The notes under the pieces are model-generated. The model had not been told where the DNA came from, searched no databases, and saw nothing but the letters and a program-made list of their open reading frames with translations. The position numbers were made by a program, and so were the translations under genes. 64,000 nt of DNA from Apium graveolens (taxonomy: Eukaryota; Streptophyta; Magnoliopsida; Apiales; Apiaceae). Location of the stretch: positions 242,364,473 to 242,428,472 of the forward strand of contig NC_133656.1 of assembly GCF_009905375.1 (NCBI RefSeq), read 5' to 3'. This document shows, piece by piece, positions 18,604 through 57,408 of the stretch (position 1 is the first letter of the stretch; every line of letters begins with the position of its first letter).

Positions 18604-18719
18604 AACCAACGAGTTCAGACCAAAAAACAAATTTCTATCTACCACCATGAAAATTTAAAAAAAAAACTCCAAAAAATAAAATAAATCACAAATTATATTA
18701 CAACCTCGGACCCCCTTGT

Positions 18720-22103: not shown

Positions 22104-23839
22104 ATAACATTTGTAAACTTGTTTCTAGATCTCTACTTTATGGAAACAATATTATTTTTTGACTTCTGCAACTATAAATTTGCACTTTTATCAAATTTTG
22201 GAAGCGGCTTATGTTGATGAACGGTTATACAACTGTGGTCTTTATGAATTAACGTCATATGTGGAAGCTTAATTTCCATCTCAATATGTGACATTGGATT
22301 GTGTTACATATTCAGCTCCTGGCTACTGTTGTTTTATTGATCTACGACTGTATACCTCTACAATCATCTAGTACTTCATGATTATAATTCCGGCTGAGCA
22401 CAACAATTTCATGCACTCATTTTAAATATTTAAGTGTAACTTGTGTATTCGGCGGTTCCTTATTTAGCGCTATGCATAACTCATTGTAACCTCTATTTTG
22501 ATCAAGAAAACCGATAAAATGAATATGCTAATGAAGGCTACAGATTCAGAGATTCGGATAAGAGGAAGAAACTTATAATATCCTAACCGCTCATGTTATT
22601 TTGGTGATAAATTTTCTAATATGCTAGTTTTAACCTGTGTTGGAGGGAGTAAAAGACCAGGGAAGGTTTGGACCCTCCCTGAAATTGGTCCAAATTGTTT
22701 TTTTAAGAAAGCCCAATGTAAAAGTTCCCCAAAAAATACACATTCATAAAACTCATGCATCAGCACATACACATCAATGAGAAATTCAGAAAACAGAGAA
22801 ATGTGATAAGAGAAGAGAGATGTGTCCGAGAGAGATGTGATAATAGTGAACAAAAACGGATAAGTGATAATAGTTTGTAACATGATAGGGGAAGAATGGT
22901 TAAATGTTTAAATAATATATTTTATAATATATATTGAGCGTTATATTTTCCTAAGTATGAAAACTGAAGATGTACTTCAAACGTCCGGAGCGTGGACGGG
23001 AGCGCTGAAAACAAATAATTGTAATAAAATATGTTTTTCATGATATTGTTTTGCACTTTTCTACTTTTAGTTGAGAATTTTTTTCATTTATTTTCTCCTT
23101 CTCTCTGATTTCAACAACTCTCATTCTTTACACTTCTTTCGAGCCGTTTATCACTGCTTTAGGTAGCACTATGGCCTTCACTATGGCCTTCAAAAAAATT
23201 ACAATTTTGCTTTTATAAAAACCAAAATTTTAATTATTTTTTGCAAAATGGCTTTTTTGGGGAAAAAAGGTATGCAATTTTACAACTGAAATTAACCAAA
23301 TCAACTTTATTGAATGTTTAGGAATAATAATCATTGGTTGAAAATTGCATTTAAGGTTACACCAAACTTACAAAATCTTGTATCTGTAATAATATTTGGT
23401 TGGGATTTGCATTTAATATTGGATTTGTTAAATCAAATGTACCTTTGTTAAATGTAATCAGAAACAGTTTTAATTATTTTGCTAAAACAAAAGCCTCATT
23501 TTCTCTAGTTACAAACCATATTTTATTGCGTATATTTACATAAAACAGTAAAATCGTAAAAAAAACTTTAAAAAGTTAGCACTTTTGCTCAATTTCATTT
23601 ATTTAATTAAATCATAAATAAATAAACTTCATAGAAATTTTAGAAAATTCAAACAACACATCTGACAAGAAAACAAACACCCATATTTCGCCAAAAATAT
23701 TTTCCTATACTTTTTCATAAAAAATAATAAGAAAATATTTAATCTACATAATACGTTACACCAACATAACAGATATTGACACACATTGTCAAACACAATA
23801 AATCACAAAGTTCCAAAAAATTTCTTCTCTAGGTAGTAC

Positions 23840-24394
23840 TAGGGGTGAGCAAAACTGAACTGAAACCAAGAAACTGAACTGAATCGTATAATTTCGGTTC
23901 TGTTTGGTTTGAGTTTTTCAAAAATTTCGGTTAATTCATTTTTCGATTTTAACCGAAATAATATTGGTTCAGTTCGGTTAATCTAAAAATAAAATCGGTT
24001 TAACTGAAATAACCGAAATCTAAATATGTATATTTTTGAATTATATTATATATATAATGTAATATAGTAAATATAAACAAAAAATAGACTGTAAGTATCT
24101 TCAATTGGTTAGAATGTATGTATCTTCAATTTTTTACATATATAATATAATATGTATTCCTTTAACATTCGAATTATTTTTTATTTCCATTTAAATTATT
24201 TTGACAAATTTTCAAATTTCGGTTTTCAGAAACAAAACCGAATTAACCGAAATAATTCAGTTTGGTTTGTGTATAAGTTTGGTTCAGTTCGGTTCGGTTC
24301 GGTTCGGTTCGATTACGAAAAAATTATCACTTCAATTTTCGGTTAATTCGGTTCGGTTCAGTTTCTGACCGAACCGACCGAACGCTCAGCCCTA
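23840..24394. mobile_element. hAT-type MITE 1 (copy 2)
   Basis: Same element as at 16,509-17,063, copied by the tandem duplication, with the same ends and imperfect 8-bp target duplication (GGTAGTAC at 23,832-23,839 and GATAGCAC at 24,395-24,402). Confidence 0.8.
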
Positions 24395-25013
24395 GATAGC
24401 ACTATGGCCTTTAAATATAAGTATTTAATTTTTTTGTAAAAAACGTAAATTTTAAAAAAAAATTGCAAAACATTTTTTTTTAGAAAAAGACGATATATAC
24501 AATTTTACAACTGAAATTAACCAAAATTAAATTTAAAAACAAATTGAAAATAATAATAATCATGAGACTACTCTAATAGAAACCAATTTTAAAATATAAA
24601 ATAGAAACTGAATAATATTTTTTTAAAATTACTTTGAAATATATCAAATATGGTATGCAAATCGATCATTGAGCGATGGAGAAAAATACAGTGAATTCGG
24701 ATTTTAAAGAAAAAACATACCCTTTAACGGGAAAAATCAATTTAAAAATGGAGGGGAAAAACTGAGATTGTCTGTAGGGTGCAAATTAGTTGGGTGTGAT
24801 ATTTTAAGGGGAACCGGATATTAAATTAAATTGATCTAATAATTTAGATTAATTTCTAGTTTGTATTCTAATTTAATTTTTATTTGATCATTTGCCTAAT
24901 AATCATATTTAGTTGAAAATTGCATTTAAGGTTGCACCCAATTTACAAAATCTTGTAATTGTAATTGTATTTGGTTGGACGTTGCATTTTGGATTTGTTA
25001 AATTAAATGTAAT

Positions 25014-25557
25014 CCTCTTAGAGATTGTTTGGTTTTCAAACCCATAGGTTTAGTTGACTATTTTAAAATTAGGTACCATTTCTTATACCCATCTAGAATC
25101 AAATTTGATACATGTGGATTTAAGAGAGTGGTATGAGGTATAAAATTAAATTTCATTATCTTATTTTTATTTATAAAGTTGAATACACTCTTAAAACATA
25201 TATTTTAAATATCATGTTGTTTAATTTTAAATAAGTTATGCTTATTTTTATTTAATAAATATTATTAATTTTTTTTTATTTAAATATTATAGATGAACAT
25301 TGAAATTTTAAAATTTTAATTTTTTAATCACTTATATTTATTTATTTTTGTTTGTAAGTTTTATAACAACTTAAATTCGATATATGCAATATATAAAATT
25401 TTGATTCAATCAATGAATCAAAAATATTTAAATTAAAGAGATTTCATTCCAGCACCGAAACAACACATGATATGAGGATTGATTTCTGAACCCCAAGCCA
25501 GCCCAACATGATTCCTTATTCCAAACCCATATTGCCTTCTGAACCAAACGACCCCAT
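25014..25557. mobile_element. MITE-like insertion 2 (copy 2)
   Basis: Copy of 17,684-18,227 with the same AAATGTAAT flanks. The surrounding region 24,395-26,040 otherwise repeats block beta and shows no gene. Confidence 0.45.
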
Positions 25558-28000
25558 AAATGTAATCAAAAATAATTTTAATTATTTTGCATAAGCAGAA
25601 GTCACACTTGGTTACAAACCATATTTTTATTACGAATATTTATAAAAAGCAGCAAAATCGTAAAAAAGTTTTAAAAAGTTAGTACTTTTGATCATTTTCC
25701 TTCATTTAATTAATTCATAAATAAATAAATTTCATAGAAATTTTAGAAAATTCAAACAACACATCTCACAAAAAAATAAACACCCATACTTCCAAAATAA
25801 ATAAATTCCTCTACTTTTTCATAAAAATAATAAGAAAATATTAAATCTACAAAATACGTTACGCCAACATAACATATTGACACACATTGTCAAACACAAT
25901 AAATCACAAAGTTCCAAAAAATTTCTTCTCTAGAACCAACGAGTTCAGACCAAAAAACAAATTTCTATCTACCACCATGAAAATTTAAAAAAAAACTCCA
26001 AAAAATAAAATAAATCACAAATTATATTACAACCTCGGACCCCCTTGTCCGATAACAGACACACTTGCAATTCTCGCCACCTTCTATAGTTCTACTCCTT
26101 CTTCCGACAACGACTACTACATCTTCGCGATTTTTGAGGTAACATTCTTTTTACCCCCAATCTCATTTTTACTGTCTGTAAATATTTGTTTTTAACTTCA
26201 TTTTTTATGTAAGTCATTTCAATTCTAGCGTTCGTTTTATAGTTCATGTGATTTTACGTAGTTTTTGAATTTTAATTACATGATGTTAATTAAGGTTTTG
26301 AATTTGTGATTATTTAGATTATTTTACTGTAGTTATTTATTTTTAACTGAATGTTGATATGATTTATTTTAATTGCAGCATTCGTTTTATAGTTGGTGCA
26401 ATTTTACGTGAATTTTTATAAATTTTGATTGTGTGTTTTGAATTTGTGATTGTTTGTTGTGTGTTGTTGTTCCAACTCCATGTTAATGTAATTCGTGTCG
26501 AATTAAGCCTTGATTTCGTGTAATTTACGTGATTATTGATTGAAATTTTGAATTTGTTATTGTTAGTAGTGTGTAATTATTTTAACTCCATGTTAATGTA
26601 ATTCATATCAATTTAAGCTTTGGTTTCGTATATTTAGGTAGTTATTGATTATTAACCATTTTTAAGTGAATGATGTGTATTAAGGTTTGAATTTGTGATT
26701 GTTTACGGTATGTAATTATTTTAACTCCATGTTGATGTCATTGATTTCGATTCAAGCCTTTGTTGCATGTACTTTATGTAATTGTTGATTTTTAAGCATT
26801 TTTAAGTGAATGATATGAATTAAGATTTTGAATTTATGATTGTTTACCGTATGTAATTATTTTAACTCCACGTTAATGTCATTCTTTTTTATTCAAGCCT
26901 TTGTTGCATATAATTATTTATGTGATTGTTGATTTGTAAGCCATTTTTGGTTAAATGATGTAAATTTGGGTTTGAATTTGTGATATAACTGGTTTATGAT
27001 TACAGATATGGAGCCAACGGAAGATTGGGGAAACAAATCATGGACGGTGGATTGTGCGTGTGGAGTGAATTTTGATGATGGAGAGGAAATGGTGAATTGT
27101 GATGAGCGTGGAGTGTGGGTGTACACGATGTGTTCGAGGTACGTAAAGAGCGAAAAAGTGTTTACGTGTGAGAAATGTAGGAGGAAGAGTAAGAGGTGTG
27201 AGAATATTGAGGATGAGGTTGCTGATAGTTTGCTTGGAATGGCGAATAAGAGTGGGGAGAATGTGTGGTCTAGCAGGATGACTTAGACAGGGAGGGTTCC
27301 GAGGGAGGAGAGGGCGCATGTGCAAGGAGTGGTTGGTGGGGAAAGCGTGGGAACGGGGATTTTTGGGTCGGCGTTGTGGAGGGCGAGCGGGTATGTACAT
27401 AAGAAGTTTGGTTTTCAGTATAAAGAGTTTGATTGGAATGACGGGAATGAGACTGGTGGTAATGAGGGTGGTGGAAATGAGCTTGGTAGTGAGGGTAGTA
27501 ATGGGGGAGCGTTGTCTTTGTTGAATAATTATAAAGCGGGGGGTGTTGGTGGTAGTGTAAGTTTTGGTGCGGGGAAGAGAACAAGAGATGAAGAAAGTAA
27601 TAAAAAGAAAAGGGAGGAAGGCGAGGAAGTTAATGACAATACAAATACCACTTCTAAGTTGATGCATAGAAGTAAGACAGTTGACCATTTAGATTATCAA
27701 CCATCATCGAAGGTCAACCTCACACTACAGGAGGATCAGTCAAACACTCTAAACACTCCTGCAACAATAGGTGATGAAGAGGTCTGAGTCAAGCTGGCAT
27801 TTTGTTTTCATGTTTTCTTGAAGTTCCTCTACTAATGTTTTGCTAATTTCTGTTTCATCTTTTGCAGCTTGCATTATTATTGCATCAGGAGCTTAACAGA
27901 TCTGCAAGAGTCTCGCGGGTGCCACGCATGCGCCATGCTGGTAGTTTACCCCAGTTAGCTTCTCCGACTGTTGCAAGCATGCTCATGAAGCAGTCACCAT

Positions 28001-31000
28001 TAGAGGCAGCCAGACGGTCGGGCCGTCCGGGCCGTGCCGAGTTTCAAGCGAGCCGAATCAATTAGCCAGTAACTCGTGAACGGCACGTAGAAGTGAACGA
28101 GCCGAGCCGAGTCGTGCCGGTTTGATAAAGTGATAACCCGGGATCGGCTCGTGAATTAGGCGAGTTTCCCGAGTTAGGCGAGTTATACGAATGTGAACCG
28201 AGTCAGGCGAATGCGAGCCGAGTTAGGCGAATACGACCCGTTCGTTTGGCGAATTCAGGCGAGTTAGCTGGTGGAAACTGGAAAGTGGAAACAGATATTA
28301 TAAAACCATTTTATTTCTGTATAGTGGAAAGTGGAAAGGTGAATTCAGTTGTTTTTTTTTACTTTTTATTAAGAATGTACATGTCTGTGAATACTAATCA
28401 GAAATTGAAAAATTGATAAATATATATATTTATGTAACCTTGTACAACTAGAATCAAATATTTAGATAATATTTAGATGGCTACGAATTATGATGAAAAC
28501 AAATTTTTTATTTTTAAAAAAACAAATAAGTGGTGCAGAAAGAAAGAAACAATTTTTTTTGTAACTTCAATTTTTCTTTTCAAAATTGTGTTTTTTTGAA
28601 TTTATAAAACTAACATGTTTATAAGGAAAAGAGGACGGTACCTCTATAAATTTTATTAAATAAAAAAATGTTACAATTGATTTGAGAGGACTCCTCTCTA
28701 AAAAAACGAAACAAACCGTGTTTACATTTTAAATAAGATACGAAATATAACAAATTTTAAAAATACAAGGCAAATAAATAGTATCAACTATTCAAATTCT
28801 TCTTCTTCTCGTGGATCGTTCGCTGACATACCCGATTTCGATGAAGTGTCCATCATCATCCAAGTATCCTCTTCGCCGTCCGAATCATCTTTTTTCATCC
28901 CTTGTTGTCTCTTTGCCGCTTGATCCCAATCTTTTTTGCAAACACATATCTTGACCACATCCGGTGCAAGACTTGATCTTTTCTCGTCCAATACTCTTCT
29001 ACCGGCACTGAAAGCAGACTCAGAAGCAATGGTAGAGGCGGGAACTACTAAAATGTCCCTTGCAATTTTAGCTAATATCGTAAATTGGTTCTCGTGATTC
29101 TTTCACCATGTTAGTATTGAAAAATCCTCATCGAACTCATAGTTATATGAAAAAAACTCTCTAAGCATGCTAAATGAAGTTTGAGGTGTAGATGCATTTT
29201 CGGAAACTCTACACTTTTGTTTTTTAGTTAGGATACCAAGCAATGTGGGATTAAACCTACTAGACTGACTAGTCTTAGGTGGTATAATATTTTGAGTTCT
29301 AGGACTGTATAGATCTATAAGACGGTGTAACAAGTCTAAACAATTTTGCACATAAAGCATGTGATTATATGAAACTCCTAATACCGAGTAATAATGTTCT
29401 AACATATTTTCTAAACCTTCTTTTCTAACACCGGGATCAATAAGACATGCAACACCATAAATAAAAGGAAATTCGGTAAAATATTCTATCCACTTTTTTT
29501 CATATCAACAATATTTGCACCAAAACAATTATCTTCTTCATATGCTTTTAAAGTAGTAATAATATTAACACACTCAATAATAACAAGATGTACATTTGGC
29601 TCATAAACGTAAGAAAATATCTTAGTACCACATGCATAACAATCAAGCAAATCACGTACCCTATTTGCCAAGTCCCAATCATTTTCGGTAATAAGTCTAT
29701 CCTCCACTTGATTTCTTGGATCGGAATTATATAACTCGATGATAACTATCTTATATTTAATTGCCTCGCATAGTAATTTATAAGTCGAACTCCATCTCGT
29801 GGGACAATCAATTCCCCACTTTTTGGGTATTAATCCATTTTCCCTACACAATTTTTTATATTGTCTCTTTAATGTGTGTGCGATACGTAAATACTTAATT
29901 ATTTTTCTAATAGGTGCTAAAAATTCGGTTATTTGTTGAATACCCGTTTGAGCCGATAAATTGACAATGTGTGCACAACATCTAACATGCAAAAAAATAC
30001 CGTCTAAAGTAGTAGGAATATCTTGTGCAATATAGTAAATAGCTTTATCATTTGCCGAAGCATTATCCAAAGAAATAGTAAACACCTTGTGTTGTAATTT
30101 AAATTCGTTAATAGTTTCGACAATTCTCGTCTTTATATTATAACCCGTGTGTTGCTCGTCCATAACATCAAAGGCAATTATTCATTTTTGTAAAAAATAA
30201 TCAGAATCAATCCAATGCACGGTAACACAAATATATTGCTCACCGCAACTCGAACTCCAACAATCACTAGTTAATGAAACCATGCCATCATAATCACAAA
30301 AGATTCGATCATTTTATCTCGACTATAGTGAAAAGGCATACCTCCACCAGGAGATGATGTCACAAAACCACCAATATGTGTTTGTTGCGGTGATTCTCCG
30401 CGTGCTTCTCCACTTTCGTGACTTTGTTTCGAAATTCCGTGATGCGTTTTCAAGTGTCGATCAAGTGTACCTGTGCCGGCACCTTTAGAGTGAAGAAATG
30501 GGGATTGATTTCGGCCGCTTTGAAAACAAAGTAAACAAAAGCATTTAAATTTGTTGGGATCTTCCGGTACTGCCTGTCTCGAAAAATAATTCCAAACGTG
30601 CGAGGAATGTCTCGTAGACGTACAAGAGGGCCCTGCAAAATTTGAACATATACAAAATTAATAATATACATCATTCGAATATATTCAAAATTAACAATAA
30701 TATATATAAATTAATAATACTGAAATGTGCTTTTCTTTCCAGTTTATACTATTCAAATTAATTCACTTTCAACAAACTACATTCTATTATATCAAGTTAT
30801 CTGAATGTGCGAATTCATCCTTGAACATAATTCAAATTATCTGGTGAAAAAGAAGAAAAATCACATCATCGTCAACAAACTAATCCTAGAAAGAGAAATA
30901 AAGGTTTGTGGTCCCAGAAATTAACAATAAGAATACGAATATGAACATAAAAACAAAAAAACTGAGGAAGAATTTTACCAACTTCCGGTCGAGGAGGTCG

Positions 31001-31764
31001 CATAGAAGCTGCTTGACTCGATCCCTGAGAAGAAATAGTACCCCTTCCTTCTTCCATTGTTCACAAAGAATTGCCTGAAAAAATTGAACTCGCCGGAATT
31101 TATTGCAGTGTTGCCGGATTTGTTCGAAAAAACCGTGTAACTTCGCCTGAATTTATTTATGTGTGCGACTTGTGTAACTGACTAACTGTGTTGTTGTGAG
31201 TTGTGAGTTGTGACTTACTGAGTGACTAGTGACCTGTGAGGCTGTGACTGTATTGTGAGCAGAGAGCTTGAGAGAAAAGAGATAAATCGAGTGAGTGAGA
31301 GAGATTGAGAGATTGAGAGATTGATAGTGAGACAGTTAACAGTGAGGTCGAGATTATTTATAGAGAATAAAGAGGTGAACGTTGGAGGAGGTTGCAGTTG
31401 CAGGTGAACGTTGGAGAGCTGCAAGTTGCAGGTGAACGTTGGAGAGTGCGCAGGTGACCGTTGTTCTGTTACGCGCGTGTGCCGAATAATGGGCCGGTTA
31501 GTGCCGAATAACGGGCCGGTTAGTGCTGAATAATGGGCCAAATTACGACTAATCCAGTTTTTATTCATTTACGAATCACACGGGCCGGTTCGCGTGCCGT
31601 GCCGGTCTGTTCGCGATTTCTGTACTCCTGATTCGTGTTCGGTTCGCCTCTAAAGCCGGTTAGCGCCGAATAATTAACCGGCACGCAACGAGCCGAGTCA
31701 AGCGAGTTTTAGGCGAGCCGGTTCACGAGCGGGCCGACTCAAACCGGCCGTCTGGCCACCTCTA
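28001..31764 (-). mobile_element. Element H: hAT transposon
   Basis: 3,764-bp element with 17-bp terminal inverted repeats (TAGAGGCAGCCAGACGG at the left; the right end read in reverse is TAGAGGTGGCCAGACGG; two mismatches) and a perfect 8-bp target duplication GTCACCAT at 27,993-28,000 and 31,765-31,772. The uninterrupted site is seen in unit II at 51,246-51,253. Subterminal GGCGAGTT/GGCGAATT words cluster at 28,156-28,265 and recur near the right end (31,690-31,725), as expected for transposase-binding sites. The internal transposase gene is broken. Confidence 0.95.
28788..31057 (-). pseudogene. hAT transposase remnant
   Basis: Minus strand. A short first exon (31,057 to about 30,982; MEEGRGTISSQG) is followed by an intron ending near 30,632. 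The second exon carries a BED-type zinc finger (SHVWNYF, CFCLLC, DRHLKTHH). Next come SLTSDCW, the DNASANDKAI and FHVRCCAHIVNL motifs, CPTRWSSTY, and the C-terminal dimerisation signature STIASESAFSAGRRVLD, ending at 28,788 with an acidic tail. Lesions: an internal deletion of roughly 70 codons after RDKMIE (about 30,310), an in-frame TGA near 30,188, a one-base loss in a poly-A run near 29,497, and a TGA near 29,103. It belongs to the Ac/Tam3-type plant hAT class and is not functional as it stands. Confidence 0.9.
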
Positions 31765-36800: not shown

Positions 36801-38345
36801 CAAGATCTTATCTGCCTCGATAAAGAGTTTGAAACAGAGACCATCCCTTTGAACTGTCATTGGTGATCCTGACACAGGAGTGACGAGTAGACATTCCACT
36901 CATAATGAATGTCACTTTTCAGGGTCTCTATCAGATATGGAACCTAAGAAAGTGGATGAGGCACTTGAAGATCCAGATTGGGTTATTGCTATGCAAGAAG
37001 AATTCAATCAGTTTGAGAGGCAGAAGGTATGGAAGTTGGTACCCGACCAAAAGGTGAGTCGGTAACAGGCACTAAATGGGTATTCAGAAAAAAGTTAGAT
37101 GAAGATGGCATTGTAACGAGAAACAAGGCCAGACTGGTAGCTAAAGGTTACTCTCAAGAAGAGGGTATAGATTATGATGAAACCTATGCACCGGTAGCTA
37201 GACTTGAGGCAATCAGGATATTTTTGGCATTCGCAGCATATTCAGATTTCAAGGTTTATCAAATGGATGTGAAGAGTGCATTATTAAATGGGGAGCTTGA
37301 AGAGGAAGTGTATGTGGAACAACCTCCAGGTTTTGAAAATCTAAATCTGGCTGACTTTGTATATTTTCTATTCAAAGCCCTCTATGGTCTTAAACAAGCT
37401 CCAAGGACATGGTATGACACTCACCAAGAGTTTTTACTTGAAAATGGTTTTACTAGAGGTGTTATAGATAAAACTGTGTTTCATAAAATGCATAAATCTG
37501 ATATGATATTAGTTCAAGTATATGTTGATGACATTATATTTTGTTCTACTAATGATGATCTTTGTAAGAGATTTTTTAAGCTAATGCAGAGTAAGTATGA
37601 AATGAGCATGATGGGAGAGTTGGACTACTTTCTTGGATTTCAAGTGAGTCAATGGAAAGATGGTGTATTCATTTGTCAATCCAAGTACATAAAAGAGCTT
37701 CTCAAGAAGTACAATATGGAAGATTCAACTCCGGCAAAGACTCCAATGCCAACAGCCTCTAAGCTTGATCATGACAAAACTGGTAAGAAAGTTGACATCA
37801 CAAGCTACAGAGGTTTGATAGGCTCATTACTTTATCTTACAACAAGTAAACCAGATATTATGTTTACAACATGGTTATGTGCTAAATTTCAAGTGGACCC
37901 TAAGGAATCTCATCTTATAGTTGTTAAGAGGATATTTAGGTAACTTAAGGGGACTCCAAATCTTGGAATTTGGTACCCTAAAGGTATAGGTTTTAACCTA
38001 GTTGGCTATACAGATTCATATTTTGCAGGTTGTAAGATTGACCATAAAAGTAATTGATGAAGCTGTTACTTTCTTGGTAGAAGGTTGGTATCATGGCATA
38101 GCAAGAAGCAGTACTCAGTATCCACATCAACTGCTAAAGCTGAATACATAGCTGCTGGAAGCTATTGTGCTCAAATTTTGTGGATGAGGAACCAACTGCA
38201 GGATTATGGTATGTTGTTGTCAAATATTCCAATATTTTATGACAATACAAGCGCCATAGCAATCTCAAACAACCGAATTAGAAGATCAAATTGCAGACAT
38301 GTTCACAAAACCACGTGATGAAAACATTTTCTCTAAGTTGGTTAG
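36801..38345 (+). pseudogene. Element S pol remnant: RT and RNase H, unit II
   Basis: Starts within pol just before RT (DHPFEL, then IGDPDTGV in another frame). The RT core is well kept at 37,029-37,943: [44 protein letters not shown] and the catalytic YVDDIIF near 37,521. RNase H follows (YTDSYFAG, STSTAKAEYIAAGS, FYDNTSAIAISNN). Lesions: a shift near 37,045, a stop at 37,941-37,943, stops near 38,055, and a deletion that joins SNN directly to the pol end (QIADMFTKP in another frame). LTR, gag, protease and integrase are absent upstream because the array junction cuts the element. Sequence type and the downstream ORF suggest a Sirevirus-like copia. Confidence 0.9.
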
Positions 38346-38840
38346 TGAACTTCGGATCTTAAATCTTTCTTATTAATAAATTAGAAGTCAATAACTATAA
38401 TTTACATTAAATAAATTCACTTGTTATTCAATGTCAATATGATAAGGACATGTGAATTTATGTGTCATTATTTATTTCTTGTAGTTCAAATATTTGTGCG
38501 TTTGTACCTAATTGATAAATATTTTAGCATACTTATATTGATAAATTATTTAAAAATAAATTAATCATAATTGGTTAAGTTATGAGTAAAGTTTAGTAGC
38601 ATAATCTTGATTTAATTATTTGAGACTTTATCAATTCAATAATAAAAGTTTCAATTTTAATAATCAAAGTTGTTATTTGTTAATTTTAGTGGACTTTAAA
38701 TTATTTAATATTTAAAGAGGTTCATTAAAGTTAACTAGTAATTAGCAGCATAATTTATTTCATAAAAATATAATATTATCAAGTTTAATGATAATAGTTG
38801 TATTATTATGAATAAAATTGTGAAGTACGGAAATTTTTTT
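38346..38840 (+). other. AT-rich spacer after pol, unit II
   Basis: About 500 bp, very AT-rich, no ORF, no repeat that I can name. It is conserved at 62,541-63,035 in unit III. It may be an untranslated interval between pol and the env-like ORF. Confidence 0.6.
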
Positions 38841-39218
38841 AAGTACAGAGTTACTTGCGACCACAGTGCACTATAGGTCGCAAGTAAGTACTTAAATTAT
38901 TTTTGTTCTTGTTACGGGGGATACTAGTCGCAAGTAACTACTTAGATTTGAGTTAGTTGCGACAAGGTTGTTCCCTGCAGTAGCTAAGTAAGACTAAAAA
39001 CAATTGTATCAGAGTTACTTGCGACCTTAACATCATTGTGGTCGCAAGTAACTACATTGTTTTTCCAAGTTATTGCTTAGGTTACTTGCGACCCCTGTGA
39101 ACTATAGGTCGCAAGTAACTGTCTTATTTTTTTTCTTCTGCGTTACTGCTATGTATATATGTGATCTCTCAGTTCATATCTTTTTTATATATACATATAT
39201 ACACACAGTCGCAAGTAA
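38841..39218 (+). repeat. CGCAAGTAA hairpin array between pol and env-like ORF
   Basis: Four hairpins built from the LTR motif: 38,851-38,862 with 38,876-38,887 (12 bp, plus an outer AAGTAC/GTACTT pair), 38,927-38,938 with 38,952-38,963 (one mismatch, arms in reverse order), 39,014-39,026 with 39,040-39,052 (13 bp), and 39,081-39,093 with 39,107-39,119 (13 bp). All four loops are exactly 13 bases and differ in sequence. One unpaired copy lies at 39,208-39,218. The array is missing from unit III by a deletion. Confidence 0.92.
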
Positions 39219-39571
39219 GGACGATAAAAGAGAGAATAATTTTCAATCGATTGGAACAGTACCCAAATATTCTGCTAAAATCTCTAAAAATTGCAGATTT
39301 GTGAAGCCTATGACCTACTCTATCATTTGACTATAAAATCACACATTTTCACTGGTTAATTTGATAGATCTTAAACTGTGATTTCTAAGGAATAAGGCTC
39401 TGTTTGGTTTGTACTTAATTGATTATTCTTCTTATTTGCTCTCTAGTATTCTATTATTGCATATTTGCTCCGCATAAATTTATGTGTTTTGCATATTAGT
39501 CTCGTGTTATTATTTCAAGCGCACGATAAATTTGTTTTACGGTCAAAATGTTATTCTCATTTTTAATTAAA
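39219..39571 (+). other. Spacer before env-like ORF, unit II
   Basis: About 350 bp, AT-rich. It includes pyrimidine-rich tracts and ends just upstream of ATG 39,572. The only ORF here is short, is partly hairpin array, and is not shared with unit III. I see nothing else. Confidence 0.5.
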
Positions 39572-42500
39572 ATGGTGGATAATATTACGATACCTAAAAT
39601 AAATTATGTCTTGGTTATAAATCGCAATCCAGCTCACATGGGCTATTTTGAAAATAGGATTCGCTTTTTAGACGAGCACTCGATTGTGCATTATGCTTTA
39701 ACTACTAATATCTAATTAAATGTTGAGCTTCTCAGAAACATTCACACCTCATCTATAGACACATCAGATGACGATCAACTAAGCTTCACGTTCCCTATTA
39801 ATGATGAGATAATTGAAATCATTGAGGATGATTTCAATGAACATCTTCATTTTCCTCGGGATGATTTCGATGATTTACCAAGGGACTGGGAAGTATTTAG
39901 CTTCTTCAAGGCCATAAGAAGCACCATGCCTAATGACAAATATCCAAAGCACTTCAACAAAAGTCATCTACCCAAACCTTGGAACATATTTTTCAACATT
40001 CTGTTCTTCTGTCTGTCTCCCAAGACTGGTGGATTTCATGGACTAACACATTTCATGAGCCTAGTTGGAGTGGCTATTGCTCATAATCTTCGAATCAACT
40101 TTGGATGTCTGATAATGCAAAAGATATTGGAGAACCAAGATCAAAAACAAGATTACATCTTACATGTCAGGTTCCTCCAGATTGTTCTCAATGGTAAGCT
40201 CACAGAAGCTCAGAAGGCCTTGGTTCACACAAACAATATGGAAAATTCACAAGTCGTGTCCTCAAAAATGGTGGGTAAACTGTTCAGACAAACTCTTTTT
40301 TTCCAATAACAACCCCATTCATGTGACAGACTTCATGCAAAATACTTTAACTCCATTGCTCAAGAACCTGTCTCTGAGACTAAAGATGATCACGAACCTG
40401 ATGCTGAAAATGAGGATGATCAAGAGGCAGAGGCTGAATATGAAGCAGATCTTCAGCCTAATCCTAACGCTCAACTAATGGATGTTGACCAATAATTTGT
40501 AATTGCTGAACAGCTAAAAGAGGTTTCTCAACCTGAAACTGCTGAACATCAAGAAGAAACTGAGCCAAATCAACCAGAGAAAAATGTTTAAAGGCTAGAA
40601 TTCACAGGTATGAATGAATCTTCTATGAGTACTATTTTTGATGATTTTATTGACACTGATTCACGTAATCTTGGTGACTTTCACACACAACTTTCCCGAG
40701 TGCAATTACAATCAGGAGGCAGTGAGTTTGTATTCCCACAAATTCATAACCACCCTCTAGAGCCCATAAATACATCTCAAACTCTCTTAACCCAATCCCT
40801 GGCGTATAAGGATTCTTTGTGTATAGAGGGAGAAACTGCACATGATAGAAAAAATAAGGAAGGTACTTTGAGTGAACCCACAACTCTGTCTCCAACGAAG
40901 GAAAATAGTATCCCCACTAAGACAACTATAACCTCCCCTGTATCTTCCCAAAAGGATACAATGGCTGAAAAGGCACATAAACAGTTATCGGATCCATCTT
41001 CTCAACAAGGTGGGTCTATTGAAATTCGCCCGTTAGCCACGGCATCCTGTAATGAGTCAAACACACTCTCAAATCTCAAGCTCTTGAAGTTTTACATGAG
41101 TCAATTAGAAGAGCGTTATTTGGTGAGGATGTATTGACGAAAACAGGGAATTCAACCATATTATGGTTATAATATCATGTTCGAGGTCCTTCAATGGATC
41201 AACTGCCTTCACAGGTGTTAGGAAAGAGTGTTGTAATCGCTGCGACTTCCAGCACAACACGTGCCTCCCTAGGACTAAAAACCTTGGATACATCTGTGGA
41301 TATGGGATCCGACATTGGTGCGGATCGGAAACCCATTGGCGATGAACCAGATTCAACTGGTGAGCATACGGGAAAAGTGTCTTCACCGACACTAGAGGAA
41401 GCTGAGGAACAGATGCCAAATATGACAGCCTCAGTGATCCTCCCAGAAATTCAAACTCTTGACCAGTCATCTCATGATGACATGCAACTTGTCTTGAACA
41501 AGGATCGGAAATCGCGAACTCCCATTACACCACTGTTGACCTCCTTAAGGATGGCTCCAGTGCTTTCTGCAGGTACATCTTCTGGATCTCGGAGCTATGA
41601 GCGGAGTGTATCCGTGAGGGTGAGTGAAACACAAACCCTAAACCGAGTGATGGAGTGTTGAGTGATACACTGCGAGAAGCCCGTGAGACACCTACCTCCC
41701 AAACTACACCTATAGACATGTCACAATATGTAACCAAATCTTACCTTGAAAAGCAGTTAGCATTTAAAGATAGTTATCTCAAAGAACAACTGGCTCTCAA
41801 GGATCAATATCTCAAAGATGAACTGTCTATCAAGGATCACCAGATTCCATATCTTTCCAAACACTTGACCTTCAAGAAGCATCATTTGCTAGTTTACGGG
41901 AATTCGTGGAGCAATCTCTCTCTCACTCAGGAAAGGGAAAAGCAATTTCAATATTGAGCCAAAGATCTCAGTTAGCAAGCAAGCGCCAATCCCTGTCTCC
42001 TCTGGAATAGATTTTTCCAGTACTGGGCTAAAGACCTCAGTCAGTAAGCAAGTGTCTGTTTCAAAATCACCTACTCAAGAGATCCCTTGTCTTGATCTTG
42101 CCTGCTCAATCAACCCCAGCTCTGAAGGATAACACAACTTAGGGGGAGAAATGGGTGGAGCAAGAAAAAGTAGTTGCTGTTGTGAACATAATTCAAGATG
42201 CTTTTCAAGCAGCTGATTCTGGATATGATGAGTTTGGAGATGAGCTTCAAGAAGAAAAGGAAAGAAAAAGAGGAGAGGATTGATCGAAAGGTGTTACTAA
42301 AGTTAAGACATACTGCTGAGAAGAGTTCTACGACTCAGGGGTAGAAATCAACATCAAAACAAGATCATTTGAGCAAAGTCATTACAACTCAGAGGAATCT
42401 TCTGTCGGAGATATATCCTCCAAAGCCCCTATTCTCAGAGTATGAACTGGAGAAAGGAGAGATAGACGAGAGTGATGTTCCTAAGGGGTATGAACCTAGA

Positions 42501-43996
42501 TTTGAAGAAGTGGTCACGGAGGAGAGAAAGATTATCTCTGAGGACTAGGAATATGAAGATGAAGATGCCTTCTCGGATGACTGTTTGTTCTATGGATTAC
42601 AGGAGAAATTCAACCGATCTTATGAAGAAATTCAAGGAGAGATTGAAAGATCAAGAGCTAGAGTGCAAAGAGCCATACAGAGAAGGGAAGCAAGAGAAGC
42701 AAAAGAATCATATCTTCGGGCAAACAGGAGAGGAAAGGAATGGGATGAGATAAAAGGAAAATGGACAAATCTGAAAACTATTATAAGTTAGAACCTGACA
42801 ACCGGAATCTTCTAAATACTATGGAGAAGTACATAGAGGATTATCCCAATATTCATGAGTTCTATGATCAGTTTAATAGGATAATCACTGGTATCACTGT
42901 GAATATTCTAAAGAATGGATGGAAAATCACTGTCGATCACAGAGATGGACTTCATATAAATATCTCTACTAGTGTATTAAAGAAGCTAAATATTGTGGAA
43001 CTGTTTGTCTTAGCATCAAAAATCCCTTGGTTGAAAATGAATGAGAATGAATACTTCAGAGACAAGCTTCAGAAGATGATGATGGATGTGTCTCCTCAAG
43101 CATTCTCTTATCCATTCGTGATCAAAGTATTTGCAGATTGCAGAATGCAGAACATCACCATGTATGATCAACCTATAAGATCCATTCGTTATCTACAACT
43201 CACTTTCCTGGAAAGTAAACTCAGGAGCAAAAGAGCAAAATTGGAGGCACCAGGAGTCAAAAATTCAGTAGCAGGCTTTAGAGCTGCTAAAGTTCTATAT
43301 GTTTACAAGCTCAATGATAAAATGATCAGGGATACAGAGAAGGACATGAAGAAAATTAAAAGAAATTATCTTGATATGGTGTTCATAAATGGAGAGCCAT
43401 AAATTAATCTTCTTAAAGATAGTGAACCTATCATCAGCACTGACAGTGAAGGGGATCTAGTCTTTGAGATCAACAAAGCAAAGATTAAGATCAATAATTT
43501 CAGAACAAGCGGATCAGAATCATTACATCAAGCCTTGATGGATGTTAGACTATCCACATGTAAAAAGGACAAGATTGCTTTGATTTCAATCATAAGAATA
43601 CTTGATGAGGTAGTGGAAGAAGAATCGATTAACGACACCAAAAGAGTACGAGGACATCCTAAAAGGATAACAGTCTTCATAATGTCAAAAAGATCTACCA
43701 TGTTATTTGAACCCATTCCTAAGTGCTCCAAAATCAGGTATCTCTAGTTGATACTTAATTAACTGAATAATCCACCTCCCATTAAAGCACTTGAAATAGA
43801 AGCTCGTGATTTGGTCCAAGCTAGACTGAATGACATTCTGGATAGAAGTAAAGGATCATCTCTCCCACACTCAACAAAATCAACAGATCCTAGAAAGAAA
43901 GCTACCAAGAGAAAGCCTGATCAGACTCAATCCATTCAAGAAGGAGAAGGTAGTAAAGGCAAGAAGCTCAAGAAAACAAAAACAAAGAAGAGATAG
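39572..43996 (+). pseudogene. Element S env-like ORF, unit II (broken, near full length)
   Basis: Most complete copy. The start is ATG 39,572 (MVDNITIPKINYVLV) with a stop at 39,713-39,715 that unit III shares. Then come an acidic FPINDEIIEIIEDD segment, a conserved block (FLSPKTGG-like hydrophobic stretch near 40,000), acidic DEPDAENEDDQEAEAEYE-type repeats near 40,395-40,450, a Ser/Thr-rich middle, a predicted coiled coil at 41,727-41,850 made of near-repeats of LKxQLALKDxYLK, a charged helix-rich region, and a Lys-rich tail near 43,890-43,996. At least five frame changes make it non-coding as a whole. By position it corresponds to the env-like ORF of Sireviruses, which also ends in coiled coils; homology is not proven here. 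Confidence 0.72.
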
Positions 43997-44167: not shown

Positions 44168-44180
44168 AATAGGGGGAGAT
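44168..44180 (+). other. Element S polypurine tract, unit II
   Basis: AATAGGGGGAGAT immediately precedes the LTR start TGTAAAGC, as in unit I. The 170 bp between the env-like stop and this point (43,997-44,167) is untranslated and conserved between units. Confidence 0.85.
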
Positions 44181-45430
44181 TGTAAAGCATAATGTAACGT
44201 AATATGTAATCGAGGAATTATAACTCAACATGAAACAGAAAAAGATAAACAATATTAAATTATGAAACATAGGAACCCTAATGATGAAGACTAGATATAT
44301 ACAAAGAATCAAAAGATGGAATTGATGTTTTAAGTTCATAATCAAGTCATGGGAAGAAGTTCATTAACATGTTCAAGCCTCCATAAAGAATAAGATATCG
44401 AAGGACTTCCAGTGTCAGTGAAATGATTTGATTTGAAGTATTGAAGATCAAGGGTTCAGTGATTGAAGCACTGAATAATCAACCAAGGTGTATCAGCTCA
44501 GCATTACAAAAGAATTTGAATTAAATCAATTCATGTTAGTTGTTTGTGAACCAGACCAGTGCACCAAGCATCAGCATATTAGAGAAGGTTTAATTCAGTT
44601 ATACAGAAAGATCAATATTGATACAATTATTAGAGTCAAGAATTTTTCTAAGTCAAAGATCCACTGCCAAGACAACTAGATCGCAAGTAAGTTGCAAGAA
44701 ACAAAAATTGGCTAAGGAAAAATAGCTTACTATCCTGGTCGTAAGTATCTCATTCAGGGAGCTACAGGTCACAAGTAACTTTGTGACTTGGGAAATATGC
44801 ATCCTCCTAGAAGCACAAGGTTGTAAGTAACCTGTACAGGGAAAAACAGGTCGCAAGTAAGTATTAGAGATGAAATTAAGGAAAAATCTTACACAGGTCT
44901 CCCTAGGTCGCAAGTAACTTTGCCCTAGGGAACTAGGTCGCAAGTAAATGCTAAAGGAGAAATTTGCTAAGGCAAAACCACCTGTGAATGTTCTGGTCGC
45001 AAGTAAGTGACTAGAAAAGGCTACTGGTGGTCGCAAGTTAAGTAGCAACCAAAGAACTCTCTCTTGTCGCAAGTGACTACTTGGTTGTGTTATTGTGAAT
45101 TATAAATGCAGCAATTCAATGATTTGAATGGACAGAAATGTGCCACCTTCCCTAAGGAATTGAAGTCGAAAAAGCAGAAAATGAATACAATTTCATTTGG
45201 TAATCTTCCTCAGCCAACAGAAAGTATTTTAGGGGAGCTCCATTAAAGACTTCATTTATTAAGCTTGTAAACACAAAGTTGTGATGTTGAATGTATATTA
45301 ATAAAATAATATATTTCTCGAATTATTTTGTGTCTATTTTAATTCCGTACTTATAACGAAGAACTTGAAACGAATCGAAAAAGATTGTAGGTATCGTATT
45401 CAACCCCCCCCCCCTTATACGATACTTTGG
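44181..45430 (+). repeat. Element S 3' LTR, unit II (end deleted)
   Basis: Counterpart of 13,467-14,772. It carries the motif array and a poly-C run (11 C), but the final bases AACTAACA and about 100 bp of flank are lost at a TTTGG microhomology join (45,426-45,430). About 45 bp are also missing near 45,290 relative to unit I. Confidence 0.83.
44679..45076 (+). repeat. GGTCGCAAGTAA direct-repeat array in LTR, unit II
   Basis: Ten copies start at 44,679, 44,737, 44,767, 44,819, 44,849, 44,906, 44,936, 44,995, 45,029 and 45,065. Intervals 58, 30, 52, 30, 57, 30, 59, 34, 36 match unit I almost exactly. Several copies are degraded only at the CpG (GTCGTAAG, GTCACAAG, GTTGTAAG), suggesting methylation-driven decay. 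Confidence 0.88.
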
Positions 45431-50225: not shown

Positions 50226-53060
50226 TATAACTGGTTTATGATTACAGATATGGAGCCAACGGAAGATTGGGGAAACAAATCATGGGCGGTGGATTGTGCG
50301 TGTGGAGTGAATTTCGATGACGGAGAGGAAATGGTGAATTGTGATGAGTGTGGAGTGTGGGTGCACACGAGGTGTTCGAGGTACGTAAAGAGCAAAAAAG
50401 TGTTTACGTGTGAGAAATGTAGGAGGAAGAGTAAGAGGGGTGAGAATATTGAGGACGAGGTTGCTGATAGTTTGCTTGGAATGGCGAATAAGAGTGGGGA
50501 GAATGTGGGGTCTAGCAGGACTGACTTGGATAGGGAGGGTTCCGAGGGAGGAGAGGGCGCATGTGCAAGGAGTGGTTGGTGGGGAAAGCGCGGGAACGGG
50601 GATTTTTGGGTCGGCAGTTGTGGAGGGCGAGCGGGTATGTACATAAGAAGTTTGGTTTTCAGTATAAGGAGTTTGATTGGAATGACGGGAATGAGACTGG
50701 TGGTAATGAGGGTGGTGGAAATGAGCTTGGTAGTGAGGGTAGTAATTGGGGAGCGTTGTCTTTGTTGAATAATTATAAAGCGGGGGGTGTTGGTGGTAGT
50801 GTAAGTTTTGGTGCGGGGAAGAGAACAAGAGATGAAGAAAGTAATAAAAAGAAAAGGGAGGAAGGCGAGGACGGCGAGGAAGTTAATGACAATACAACTA
50901 CCACTTCTAAGTTGATGCATAGAAGTAAGACAGTTGACCATTTAGATTATCAACCATCATCGAAGGTCAACCTCACACTACAGGAGGATCAGTCAAGCAC
51001 TCTAAACACTCCTGCAACAATAAGTGATGAAGAGGTCTGAGTCAAGCTGGCGTTTTGTTGTCATGTTTTCTTGAAGTTCCTCTGCTAATGTTTTGCTAAT
51101 TTCTGTTTCATCTTTTGCAGCTTGCATTATTATTGCATCAGGAGCTTAACAGATCTGCAAGAGTCTCGCGGGTGCCACGCATGCGGCATGCTGGTAGTTT
51201 ACCCCAGTTAGCTTCTCCGACTGGTGCAAGCATGCTCATGAAGCAGTCACCATCTAATTCTGTGGGAAAAGACCGTGGTTCGGTAAGTTGCACTGTCACT
51301 TTTAATTTCATTTATACTAGTGATTTCTCAATTACATTAATCGTTGTGCTTAAACAATACAAATATTCATTTCGCCCTTGGTAAGGCCCGTCCTTGTTAA
51401 GTTAGTTGTGTACTGATTTTTTTCCTTTTATATCCTTGTTGATTTAAATATAACGTGATAAGTACTGTTATAGGGTGTTAAGTAACCATCTATAATTAAA
51501 ATCCTAAGGTGTTGGGAGGCGTCCTCAATTGGGTTATATAACTGTAATATCTTGCGCGACATGTCTTAGATATATAACTCTAAAATCACTTTGTTTTTAA
51601 GAATCAAACTTTAAAGCGCATAATGAGTATGCGTTTCCATAAACGTGATAAAAAACAAAGTACTGTTTTAGTTATGTTTCCATAGCTAAAACTAGGTACT
51701 GTTGACACCATAAATGTTTATCTCATCCTTCCAATTGGTTGATATTAATCGCTTACGTGTCATTCTTTATTGATGTTTTTATCAATGTTTATGTCTGGCC
51801 TTTTATGGCAAATTTTGAGAAATACTGCACCCAATATCATAAAAGGAAAAATATGGCCCTTTATGGCACAGAAAAACGAGTCTTAGACATGTCTTCTTTT
51901 AAAACGCAAAGGCGTGCAACGTTTCTTATATTTATAACTCTGAAGTCACTTTTTTTTAAGAAACAAACTTTAATGCGCATCATAAGTATGCGTTTCCAAA
52001 AATATGATACACAGTGGCGTGTTTGGAAGACGTCACATGCAGTAGCGGTTTTACTAAATTGTAATGGATACCTGTACATAGTGTTTTGGAATGGTTCCAC
52101 ACAACTGGTAATGTGTGGAGTCGACTCTGTGATCTTCACTTGAATGCACTACAAATGAACCACTGAACCAGATATATGCTTTGGCAAGATGTGAAACACA
52201 CAATATTATAATGTGTCACATGTGGCATTAAGGGCCTTTCTATCCAGTTTATACTTTTTGGGCAATTTTCCTTAGATATCTATTAAGTTTCATCCTCTAA
52301 TGATGTCATTTCTCATTTTTAATATTACTTGCACGGTTAATTTTCATATCTAATGAAGGTGAAGTGAAGCCTGAGGAGATTATATAAAAATAACCATGTT
52401 AAGGTAATGTCTTACATTGCCGAGGGTATAGCTTTGTACTTCTTTAGCCTAGTGGTATCCATCTTCCCTTGGTAACAAGAGGGCGAGAGATTGACCTTGT
52501 GTAGACAGCATTTATGACAGGCTGACAGTGTGAGTATTAAATTTTCTGTAAATGACCGATAATCGAAAAAAGCTATAGTGGAAAAGGATGAGTAAAAACA
52601 GTTTAAAATTTTCAATTGTTCCTTTTTTCTTTTATAAATGATAATGACTGCTCGACTTAGCTTAATGGTAGTATCTGTTGTTGTTTTTAACAATAAAGGT
52701 TTCCAAAAGAAAAGGAAAAAGTGTAGCAACATAGGGAACTCAAAATTCTCAAGAGCTCCAGGATGAATCTAAGAGTATGAAGAGATCACTACTGCTGCCA
52801 GTTCAGAGGACCAATGACTCGGCTCGCACAGAAAATTCTATTACCATGAGGGTAGTGGACAATGGGTCAGCACCAGCCATACAATCTGCTAACAAGAGTA
52901 ATCCTCCTGCAACTAGCAAGCAGCATGTGTCTTCCAGATGTAAATCGACTCAAACTGCCTCTGATGATGACTCTGGCACTGAAAACCGTGTGACCTACCG
53001 CACCTTACCAGGTTATTGCTTTAAGTTCTAGATTCTTCACATATTTGAGAAAGATATAGC

Positions 53061-53394
53061 TGTTGGTCCCAGATTAAAACCACCAGCAACAAGCTTATTA
53101 CAGATGCAATACTCACACACAACACACTCGTTTAAAACAGAGGAAATGCAGAACTCCACTTCTTATTTATTAAACAAACACAGTACATTTATATTAAAAG
53201 TACTTGGAAATAAACAAAACAACTAACTCCTAAAGACCAGCAACAAACTCCTAAATATAGTCCACTACTTCCACTTATTCTCCTGATCCTAAAAACACTG
53301 AAAACCACTCTTTGACTACTTCCCTAACGGCTACTACTGCTATCTGGTGTAAAGAACATTCAGGCAAAATACAAGTTCAAATTATTTTCCAACA
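53061..53394 (-). repeat. Element C 3' LTR
   Basis: 334 bp, TGTTGGTCCC...TTTCCAACA on the plus strand. Next to it at 53,395-53,404 is the reverse complement of a polypurine tract (GGGAGAG in element sense), confirming orientation. Confidence 0.93.
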
Positions 53395-56300
53395 CACTCT
53401 CCCGTAATTTGAACTCGATTCTGCAGATTCTGGATTCCAAGCAATGCTCGCATTCTCTCGAACTTCATCGTAGACATGGGTTTAGTCAATATATCCGCAC
53501 ATTGCTTTTCAGAACACACATGCTTGATCAAAATCTCTCCTCGTGCAACACATTCGCGTATAAAGTGGTAGCGAATATCAATGTGTTTGCTTCGTCCATG
53601 GAAGACCGGATTTTTCGCCAAATCAATGGCAGACTTGTTATCTATATATATAGTAACTGGACAGTGCTTCATATCACCTATCTGGGTAAGTAAATTTCGC
53701 AGCCACACACCTTGACATGCTGCTGCAGTTGCAGCCATGAATTCTGCTTCACAGGATGATAAAGCCACGCACCTCTGTTTTTGTGATACCCAAGTAATCA
53801 AACTTTCATTTAAATAAAATGCCATTCCCCCTGTACTTTTTCTATCCTCGACATCTCCCCCAAGATCACTATCAGTATAGCCAGACAATATATAGTTTCC
53901 AGTCCCTCTCCTGTAAATTAAACCATAGTTTAGAGTACCTTTTACATACCGCAAAATACGCTTTGCTGCGTTCAAATGCATCGTAGTGGGACGCTCCATA
54001 AACTGGCTAATCATCCCTACCGAATACACTATATCTGGTCGTGTATGGACCAGATACCTCAGACCCCCTACCAGGCTTTTGAACATCGTGGAATTGACTG
54101 TCTTCCCCGTCTCATCTTTAACCAGCTGCACCTTTGGTTCCATTGGATACTTTGACGGATTACAATCTGTCATTCCGGCCTTTTCAAGCAGCTTCTTCGC
54201 GTACGCAGTCTATTTTAGCTCTGTGTAGTCCTTCTTTTGATCAACTTCGATTCCCAAATAATAAGATAACCTTCCCAAATTACTCATTTCAAACTCATCA
54301 CTCATTTGTTTCTTAAATCTTTCAATATTTGCAACGCTTGTGCCAGTAACTAGAAGATCATCAACATACACCCCTATAATTAAGGACTCATTCCCCGTCT
54401 CGTCTTGTGTAAACAGCGTGCTCATATGGGCATTTAACGAAGCCAAGTTTCTCCAGACACTTACTTAACTTCGCATACCACGCACGAGGTGCCTGCCGCA
54501 GTCCGTACAGTGCTTTCACTAAGCGATACACCATGTGCCTTTTGTTTTCTTTCACAAATCCCTCAGGCTGCGTTACATATACAGTTTCCTCCAAATCTCC
54601 ATTTAAAAAGGCGGATTTAACATCTAAATGGTGCACCTGCCACCCGTTTTTTGCAGCAAGTGCCAGCAAAAGTCTCACGGTTTCCAGTCGAGTAACCGGT
54701 GCGAACACCTCCTCAAAATCTATGCCTTGCCTTTGAACATAACCTCTAGCTACGAGTCTTGCTTTGTGTTTGGTAATGTTCCCGTCAGCATTCCTCTTAA
54801 CTTTGTATACCCATTTCAGGTTGATCGGTTTTTGTCCAGGAGGTAACTCTTCCAGTTTCCAGGTGTTATTCTTTTCTATTGCTTCGATTTCATTTTTCAT
54901 GGCCTGCACCCATGATTCATCATGTGCTGCCTGTTCATAGCTCCCGGGTTCATCCACTCCACATAATAACAATTCCTCCTCTAACTCGACTTCTTGAGTC
55001 TCGTTATAAATGTCACTAAGCAGTCTGAAATTCCTTGGATGATCGCTGCTGCTACTCGAATTCCCAGAATTTCCAGTGGCTGAACCCTGATCTTCCAAGT
55101 CTGTTTGTGCAGTAACTGACCTGGTGGGCGTCTCTGCTCTCGTGGTCTCACTAGTGCTCACACTACCTCTTTCTGAGTGACCATAATTTTCACCACCATA
55201 TTCATTAGTGGCATTCTCAGTGAGATCTTCATTTTCTGCACTTGACCAATTCCCCGTCACATTGAAAGAAGCCTGATTAGAAAACTCTTCGTTTTCATCT
55301 TGCATCTTACTCCAGTTCCAACCTTTGCTCTCCTCAAACACGACGTCCATGCTCACTACAATTTTCTTTAACTCTAGGTCGTAGAGTCTGCAAGCTTTTG
55401 TGCCTGGTTCCGTACCCAAATAAATCACTTCTCTACTTCTATCATCCAATTTGGTTGTGTACACATTTGGCACTTTCATGTGTGCCACACAGCCAAACAC
55501 TCGGATGTGACTTACGTCCGGTTTATAGCCTTTCCACACCTCATACGGGGTCTTGTTTGACACAGCCCGTGTTGACAAGTGATTAAGCACGTATACGGAA
55601 TGTCGTGCAGCCTCTCCCCATAAATTAGAAGGCATGTGCATCTCTTTCAAAAAGCTACGAGTCATTGCCACTACCGTCCGGTTTCGACGTTCTACGACTC
55701 CATTTTGTTGTGGTGAATAAGGGGCTGTAAAATGCCTTACAATACCACTTTCTTCACAATAAGCATTGAACTGATTAGAACAAAATTCCCCACCCCTATC
55801 AGTTCTCAATATTTTAATCCTTTCATCTGTATTCTTTTCGATAAACATTTTGAATTTCTTAAATATCCCTAGTGCTTCATCTTTGTTTCTCAACATGTAA
55901 AACCACATAAATCTACTATAATCATCAACCAACAATAAGAAATATTTATTACCCGCCTTTGTTTCAGGTGTGATTGGACCACAAAGATCCGCATGAATCA
56001 GTTCCAGAATTCTTGTAGCTCGATATTCTTCCTGGCTTGGAAACGATCGTCTCGTTTGTTTTGCCATTAAGCATCCTGAACACAGCTCCTTAGGTTGCAC
56101 CAATTTTGGTAAGCCTCGTACCATATCGTTGTCAGACAACATCTTCATGGCCCTATAATTCACATGACCCAAACGCAAGTGCCACAATCTTGAAGATTCC
56201 TCAATCGTGGACAACAAGCAGTTGGAACCACTGGACTCCAGAATGATTTTATAAAGTTGATTACTTGTTCTTTTAACTTTCATGAGCAGCTTATGATTAC

Positions 56301-57377: not shown

Positions 57378-57394
57378 CCACTAGATTAATCGGG

Positions 57395-57406
57395 GCTCTG
57401 ATACCA
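57395..57406 (-). other. Element C primer-binding site (tRNA-iMet)
   Basis: Minus strand TGGTATCAGAGC directly inside the 5' LTR, the usual copia site for initiator Met tRNA. Only about 17 bp separate it from the gag start codon, an unusually short leader and a strong contrast with the 1.9-kb leader of element R. Confidence 0.92.
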
Positions 57407-57408
57407 GA

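Follow-up and report, generated by a model that had tools for sequence, protein, structure and literature searches.

The window, by which we mean the whole stretch of DNA analysed (64,000 nucleotides of the 3.33 Gb genome that was searched), carries a cluster of inverted repeats between a pol gene and an env-like region. Judged by its sequence, the element that bears them is a degraded env-bearing Sirevirus (Ty1/copia), laid out as follows.

37017-37940, + strand: reverse transcriptase portion of pol (RVT_2, E 1.1e-70)
37941-39715, + strand: linker from pol to the env-like region, containing the hairpin cluster
39716-43744, + strand: env-like region, split across several ORFs
44171-44178, + strand: polypurine tract AGGGGGAG, which begins exactly 10 bp ahead of the LTR
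44181-45430, + strand: 3' LTR, end approximate
44679-45077, - strand: half-site array in the LTR, 11 one-way matches spaced 11-59 apart, each with up to 3 mismatches
57742-64000, + strand: second pol-to-env copy, hairpin cluster deleted

In the window, a copia-type reverse transcriptase lies upstream of an env-like region, as in Sireviruses, and the Sirevirus octamer AGGGGGAG stands 10 bp before the 3' LTR with an AT/TG junction (AT after the octamer, the TG of the LTR at 44181). A C-run at 45404-45414, near the LTR end as approximately placed, corresponds to the C-rich integrase signal of Sireviruses. The octamer before the LTR belongs to the definition of Sireviruses in the available text of PMC2829016, and octamer position, junction, C-run and box placement appear to fit the description given there. 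Between pol and the LTR there is one extra exact octamer, at 42141, 2 kb away; this interval showed no cluster of exact octamers less than 0.5 kb from the 3' LTR. The label 'env-like' was given for position and for recurrence beside pol in other copies, without a named domain; the one Pfam match of the region, PF20167, was weak (23.6 bits against a cut-off of 45). In the second pol-to-env copy, a deletion at 63053, equivalent to 38858-39489 of the first copy, has removed all hairpins; TTGC occurs at both of its edges, one of which falls within the first arm. Copies of the element are probably mostly dead, and tests of selection on them are therefore weak.

The cluster is built from a half-site 13-mer, GTTACTTGCGACC / GGTCGCAAGTAAC, which forms four inverted pairs (starts 38850/38876, 38926/38952, 39014/39040 and 39081/39107), each 26 bp from start to start, so that all four centres are 13 bases long.

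38841-38893, + strand: hairpin 1, arms 38850-38862 and 38876-38888, centre 38863-38875 of the forward type
38841-38846 and 38888-38893: outer 6-bp stem of hairpin 1 in the predicted fold
38926-38964, + strand: hairpin 2, arms reversed with 1 and 2 mismatches, 13-base centre
39014-39052, + strand: hairpin 3, centre 39027-39039 in the orientation opposite to hairpins 1 and 4
39081-39119, + strand: hairpin 4, centre 39094-39106, inverted at this place in other copies
39186-39201, + strand: TATA-like run, 66 bp past the last arm
39207-39219, - strand: lone half-site, 100 bp start to start past the last arm

A sequence-only reading of this DNA had described four hairpins with 13-base loops, an extra outer 6-bp stem after a 4-base bulge in the first, and a motif shared with the LTR. 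All of this is borne out, the LTR holding 11 matches within 3 mismatches; the spacing it gave as 25-26 is 26 bp in every pair. The lone half-site past the last arm also occurs in several relatives, at 95-116. Allowing up to 2 mismatches, the 13-mer occurred 37 times in the 64-kb window, tandem copies counted, compared with a mean of 0.71 and a maximum of 3 in 100 shuffles. At gathering cut-offs, no Rfam family matched the window.

The window seems to lie within a tandem array with a unit of ~19.4 kb, made up of a Sirevirus part and gene-like DNA: on C10, at ~241.43-242.62 Mb, there are 19 places with the hairpin 4 pattern, and 7 of 18 intervals measure 19.0-19.5 kb. Within the window, a 7.33-kb unit that begins inside an LTR half-site array is duplicated head to tail with 99.88% identity (14005-21338 and 21333-28667, overall 14005-28667). 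The stretch 53058-57741 is an insertion bounded by 337-bp terminal repeats that are 99.1% identical. It contains a minus-strand copia pol at 54391-56310 and, at 57395-57406, a match to a primer-binding site, and has the appearance of a small, young copia element. One array unit holds a further insertion (28000-31764) that the following unit lacks at the corresponding point (51245-51253); this insertion contains minus-strand ORFs, of which 29489-30181 is without a Pfam match.

In the LTR, the same half-site is arranged differently. Only two half-sites were seen in the opposite orientation to the array, each with 4 mismatches, and across 14 stretches treated as LTR arrays, 111 of 114 half-sites pointed one way and 3 the other. 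These arrays were cut by hand; two, almost duplicates of one another, come from the window, and for five (L005, L008, L013, L016 and L019) the match to the window LTR is weak or absent. Excluded were L006, L007, L012 and L018, with one or two half-sites each, as well as L015, whose half-sites are divided three to one between the two directions, and a second group in L005, divided four to one. Spacings in the LTR arrays ranged from 11 to 112, the commonest being 30 (16 of 96), and because they vary, a fixed centre is seen in the linker units only. The motif is nonetheless present in high copy both in the LTR and upstream of env, where the window has 9 half-sites, a placement that characterizes Sirevirus RM boxes. 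Several differences, which were not counted, between the arrays at 14023-14362 and 44737-45077 fall at the CpG of the half-site and change CG to TG or CA, which is what methylation of the DNA would predict. Observed/expected CpG was 0.43 and 0.49 over the LTR arrays, 0.85 over the hairpin stretch, 0.37 just upstream of it and 1.07 just downstream; with a G+C of 0.368 over 38841-39220, the hairpin stretch does not qualify as a CpG island, a feature that Sirevirus RM boxes define.

To follow this geometry beyond the window, we searched the genome for the half-site and found 595 forward and 620 reverse places, compared with 10 and 13 for the control, a count partly inflated by the local tandem array. 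Convergent pairs with a centre of 0-17 bases occurred at 105 places (control 0), and among the 50 of these that were listed, all on C1-C9, the centre measured 13 bases in 46, 12 in 2 and 11 in 2. We also scanned 18 oriented linkers (the window, L001, L003, L004, L021 and L041-L053), with L033 and distant loci kept outside the counts. Here, 44 of the 53 convergent neighbours were 26 apart. The 36 '-+' neighbours included 17 at 35 or 36 apart and a single one at 26, which is the window's hairpin 2 (44/53 versus 1/36, Fisher p 3e-15, a guide only because the rows are related). The constant geometry that had been noted in one copy is therefore a property of other copies too. The reversed arms of hairpin 2, likewise pointed out before, are real in the window but do not recur: none of the '-+' neighbours in the 17 other linkers were 26 apart, and among the 11 genome places with exact arms in this reverse order and a centre of up to 15, none had a 13-base centre (0, 2, 11 or 15 instead). 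Hairpin 2 was accordingly rejected as part of the conserved geometry.

Pieces of pol, linker and env-like region flank the cluster in order in L001, L003, L004, L021, L041-L049 and L051, the env piece of L049 being 46 bp long; L050 has no env match, L053 lacks both env and the second linker piece, and L052 consists of a short linker piece only. As L041-L053 were picked for an exact convergent pair with a centre of 0-17, which is neutral for a length of 13 and favours intact arms, arm-versus-flank identities are biased and we did not lean on them. Among position-equivalent copies, the constancy of length is in part plain inheritance. The distant linkers L024, L029, L035 and L037 contained a few single inverted repeats and no repeated set of split palindromes. 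A related linker, L033:2850-3660, has a different repeated motif (CTAAGTTGCGACC type), mostly in one orientation, that shares the GCGACC end. In L017, taken as the LTR of L033, there were two matches to TTG[CT]GACC, neither with the variant tail, so that a concerted change of LTR and linker is not demonstrable.

The loops had been described as differing in sequence. This is so as they stand, but once oriented, the centres of hairpins 1, 3 and 4 share a pattern (ACAGTGCACTATA, ACAATGATGTTAA, read from the other strand, and CCTGTGAACTATA). We collected 44 centres of 13 bases from the 18 linkers and oriented them by an iterative procedure, which placed C2 in 38, G4 in 36, G6 in 43, T10 in 32 and A13 in 40. 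The information of the oriented centres was 10.0 bits, a figure inflated by shared descent, compared with a mean of 1.9 and a maximum of 2.2 in 40 shuffled controls; the centres are thus not freely variable. Beside LTR half-sites, the pattern scored well in 6 of 84 at the equivalent place and in 6 of 84 on the other strand, and the possibility that LTR half-sites carry the linker centre upstream was rejected.

The patterned centre can be inverted. At hairpin 4, its direction differs between copies whose outer flanks are alike: it is forward in the window, L001, L042, L045, L046, L048 and L052 (15 bases), and inverted in L043, L050, L053 and L051 (12 bases), the remaining seven linkers being given no direction. 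Read from the other strand, the L050 centre agrees with that of the window at 12 of 13 bases. At equivalent positions, the centre is thus inverted with arms and outer flanks unchanged, as template switching would leave it. Genome-wide, patterns anchored on the left flank alone found 13 places with an inverted centre (up to 1 mismatch) and 28 with a forward centre (longer left-flank pattern, up to 2 mismatches), of which 19 lie in one tandem-array-like stretch of C10 and 9 are dispersed; besides the window, both flanks were read at 4 inverted places and at 6 of the dispersed forward ones. At hairpin 1, two copies appear inverted: the mean identity of L004 to the others is 0.47 reversed versus 0.22 as is, and that of L049 is 0.42 versus 0.13. 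The other 14 do not appear so. At hairpin 3, the direction was the same in 14 of 14 position-equivalent copies, a uniformity that simple template switching would not predict and that speaks against it.

We then placed the directions on a tree built from pol and linker pieces, with L052 left out. Position-equivalent sets comprised 16 of the 18 linkers for hairpin 1 (without L041 and L047), 14 for hairpin 3 (without L041, L046, L047 and L050) and 15 for hairpin 4 (without L003, L051 and L052), and copies of doubtful equivalence at hairpin 4 (L004, L021, L041, L044, L047 and L049) received no direction. The hairpin 4 states required at least two changes. Grouping the four inverted hairpin 4 linkers as one clade was rejected (p-AU 0.0003), as was grouping the two inverted hairpin 1 copies (p-AU 0.010). 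Some clustering of the states is apparent, since out of 500 label shuffles 46-47 were as clustered as hairpin 4, and recombination between copies could mimic repeated flips. The well-supported branches alone force only one change and do not by themselves require repeated flipping. Overall, template switching in a retrotransposon seems to have left a natural record in these inverted centres, which suggest that the direction of the centre is without importance, as for a symmetric DNA site and not an RNA loop.

The fixed geometry recurs across the genome, the half-sites of the LTR point one way, and the centre is patterned and invertible. To account for this, we favour a reading that we consider probable, though far from assured: the cluster would be a Sirevirus-type set of boxes upstream of env, composed of putative two-armed DNA-binding sites, with a possible internal env promoter and centres flipped by template switching. 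Each unit would span 39 bp, with two facing 13-bp half-sites around a 13-bp centre, and may work as double-stranded DNA, a form that we favour because the direction of the centre varies and the half-site is kept singly in the LTR. A protein of the host or of the element could bind both arms, and the same protein may use the single half-sites of the LTR; the earlier suggestion that a protein site is read on either strand with constant spacing fits the geometry of other copies, with the binding itself putative. Formation of RNA hairpins would be possible and secondary. A NAC-type half-site (TACTTG) was considered as a candidate.

The units might drive an internal env promoter with a TATA box ~55-85 bp further on. 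Of the 18 linkers, 13 have a TATAWA 55-85 bp past the last arm, compared with a mean of 3.7 and a maximum of 10 in shuffles. However, 12 of the 18 have one at 30-60 bp, and TATA-like runs are easy to find here. An internal env promoter has been argued for in Sireviruses, with none identified in the available text of PMC2829016. For the expression of Sirevirus env-like genes, the box cluster and the TATA-like run offer a precise candidate stretch. As for the centres, a polymerase on the palindrome would hop to the other strand in one arm and back in the other, flipping what lies between. According to the part of PMC8604942 at hand, template switching between perfect arms inverts the spacer, and only where arms exceed 9 bp; the arms here are 13 bp. 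The flip may take place either while the element is reverse transcribed or in chromosomal DNA.

The half-sites might alternatively be kept for RNA, with the hairpins folding in genomic RNA for packaging, dimerisation, env translation or RNA stability. Predicted folding is indeed strong (z of -5.5, -5.0, -8.0 and -4.4 for hairpins 1 to 4 in turn and -9.4 for the 380-nt stretch), and the stem is preserved when the centre inverts. However, over 585 position pairs of the arms, 18 were changed on the left only, 41 on the right only, 3 on both sides without matching and 4 on both with matching, all 4 at arm ends. With 59 one-sided changes to 4 matched, compensatory stem changes were rejected and conserved RNA pairing, one side of the earlier suggestion of selection on structure, is not supported, although this test is weak for active copies as most copies are probably dead. 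The arm changes weakly back an action as DNA, and the LTR keeps the same half-site without a facing partner. We regard an RNA function as unlikely. Nor do we expect that the geometry is incidental, that is, one ancestral hairpin duplicated locally into copies that serve no function and owe their equal loop lengths to descent. Hairpins 1 and 4 do resemble each other (centres identical at 10 of 13, 81% over 54 nt) and are probably duplicates, and the compared linkers are so close (end branches 0.044-0.076 changes per site) that length would mostly be inherited anyway. Between hairpin positions, however, flanks look unrelated and distances vary, whereas arm sequence, centre length and oriented pattern persist, and the LTR, too, retains the half-site. 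Random loop lengths and uncompensated stem decay had been named in advance as the marks of such an incidental origin; the stems do decay without compensation, but loop lengths are not random, and we rate this explanation as improbable.

The palindromes could also be mainly a host target, giving rise to small RNAs by which the element is silenced. The LTR palindromes of maize Sireviruses are reported to act in this way: palindrome-rich regions there are fast-evolving small-RNA hotspots (Bousios 2016, as cited in the available text of PMC5311732 and PMC10760457). The hairpin stretch is likewise less alike between copies than the upstream linker (in matching pieces, 80.7% versus ~90% in L001 and 68.9% versus ~88% in L004). 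Against this, a 13-bp stem is short for dicing, the fixed 13-bp centre would go unexplained, and a host target would favour loss of the palindromes, not their upkeep. We rate this reading as improbable. Returning to the DNA-site reading, a bolder extension of it is a long shot: linker and LTR boxes would be putative targets of one protein, possibly encoded by the element like VANC, that couples the LTR and env promoters and counters silencing, the centre serving as a direction-free cassette (symmetric reading) and recurrent template-switch flipping keeping both arms usable.

This extension invites comparison with VANDAL elements, which are DNA transposons. The targets of VANC in VANDALs are likewise non-coding repeats that diverge fast, to judge from the abstracts of PMC5735166 and PMC10398659; there they are bound by a known element-encoded anti-silencing protein, VANC, and a counterpart for the present boxes is hypothetical. 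Closer to the window are the RM boxes of Sireviruses (Bousios et al. 2010), repeated palindromic boxes that occur in the LTR and clustered upstream of env in the text of PMC2829016 at hand, so that the arrangement, for which the sequence-only reading knew no description, is not undescribed. Common to both are symmetric high-copy boxes in the upper LTR half, ahead of a TATA box, and, where the element bears env, further copies grouped before it. The published boxes are compact palindromes with 0-4 central bases (Table 3 as read) and, except in Tnd-1, a CGG-CCG core (PMC2829016, same portion). In the window, by contrast, the half-site is 13 bp long, linker units are split by a patterned 13-bp centre and half-sites in the LTR stand singly, pointing one way. 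As GTTACTTGCGACC / GGTCGCAAGTAAC contains no CGG-CCG core, the box would work like an RM box and is not classed as a standard one.

The LTR palindromes of maize Sireviruses (CACCGGACNNNGTCCGGTG; Bousios 2016 via PMC10760457 and PMC5311732) likewise combine fixed arms with a variable centre, and are clustered in a fast-evolving region with strong predicted structure; they differ in having a 3-bp centre and in lying in the LTR, and the available text of both sources mentions no inverted centres. In the spacer inversions of PMC8604942, so far as its accessible part goes, arms are also kept while the spacer alone is inverted, with independent recurrence, but those cases concern yeast genes with spacers of 3-5 bp, whereas the box inverted here belongs to a retrotransposon and its centre measures 13 bp. 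Split boxes with a fixed 13-bp centre, or inverted centres, do not appear in the available portions of PMC2829016, PMC5311732, PMC10760457 and PMC3599292. Boxes in the LTR and before env were thus already known, and what is new here is the patterned, invertible 13-bp centre.
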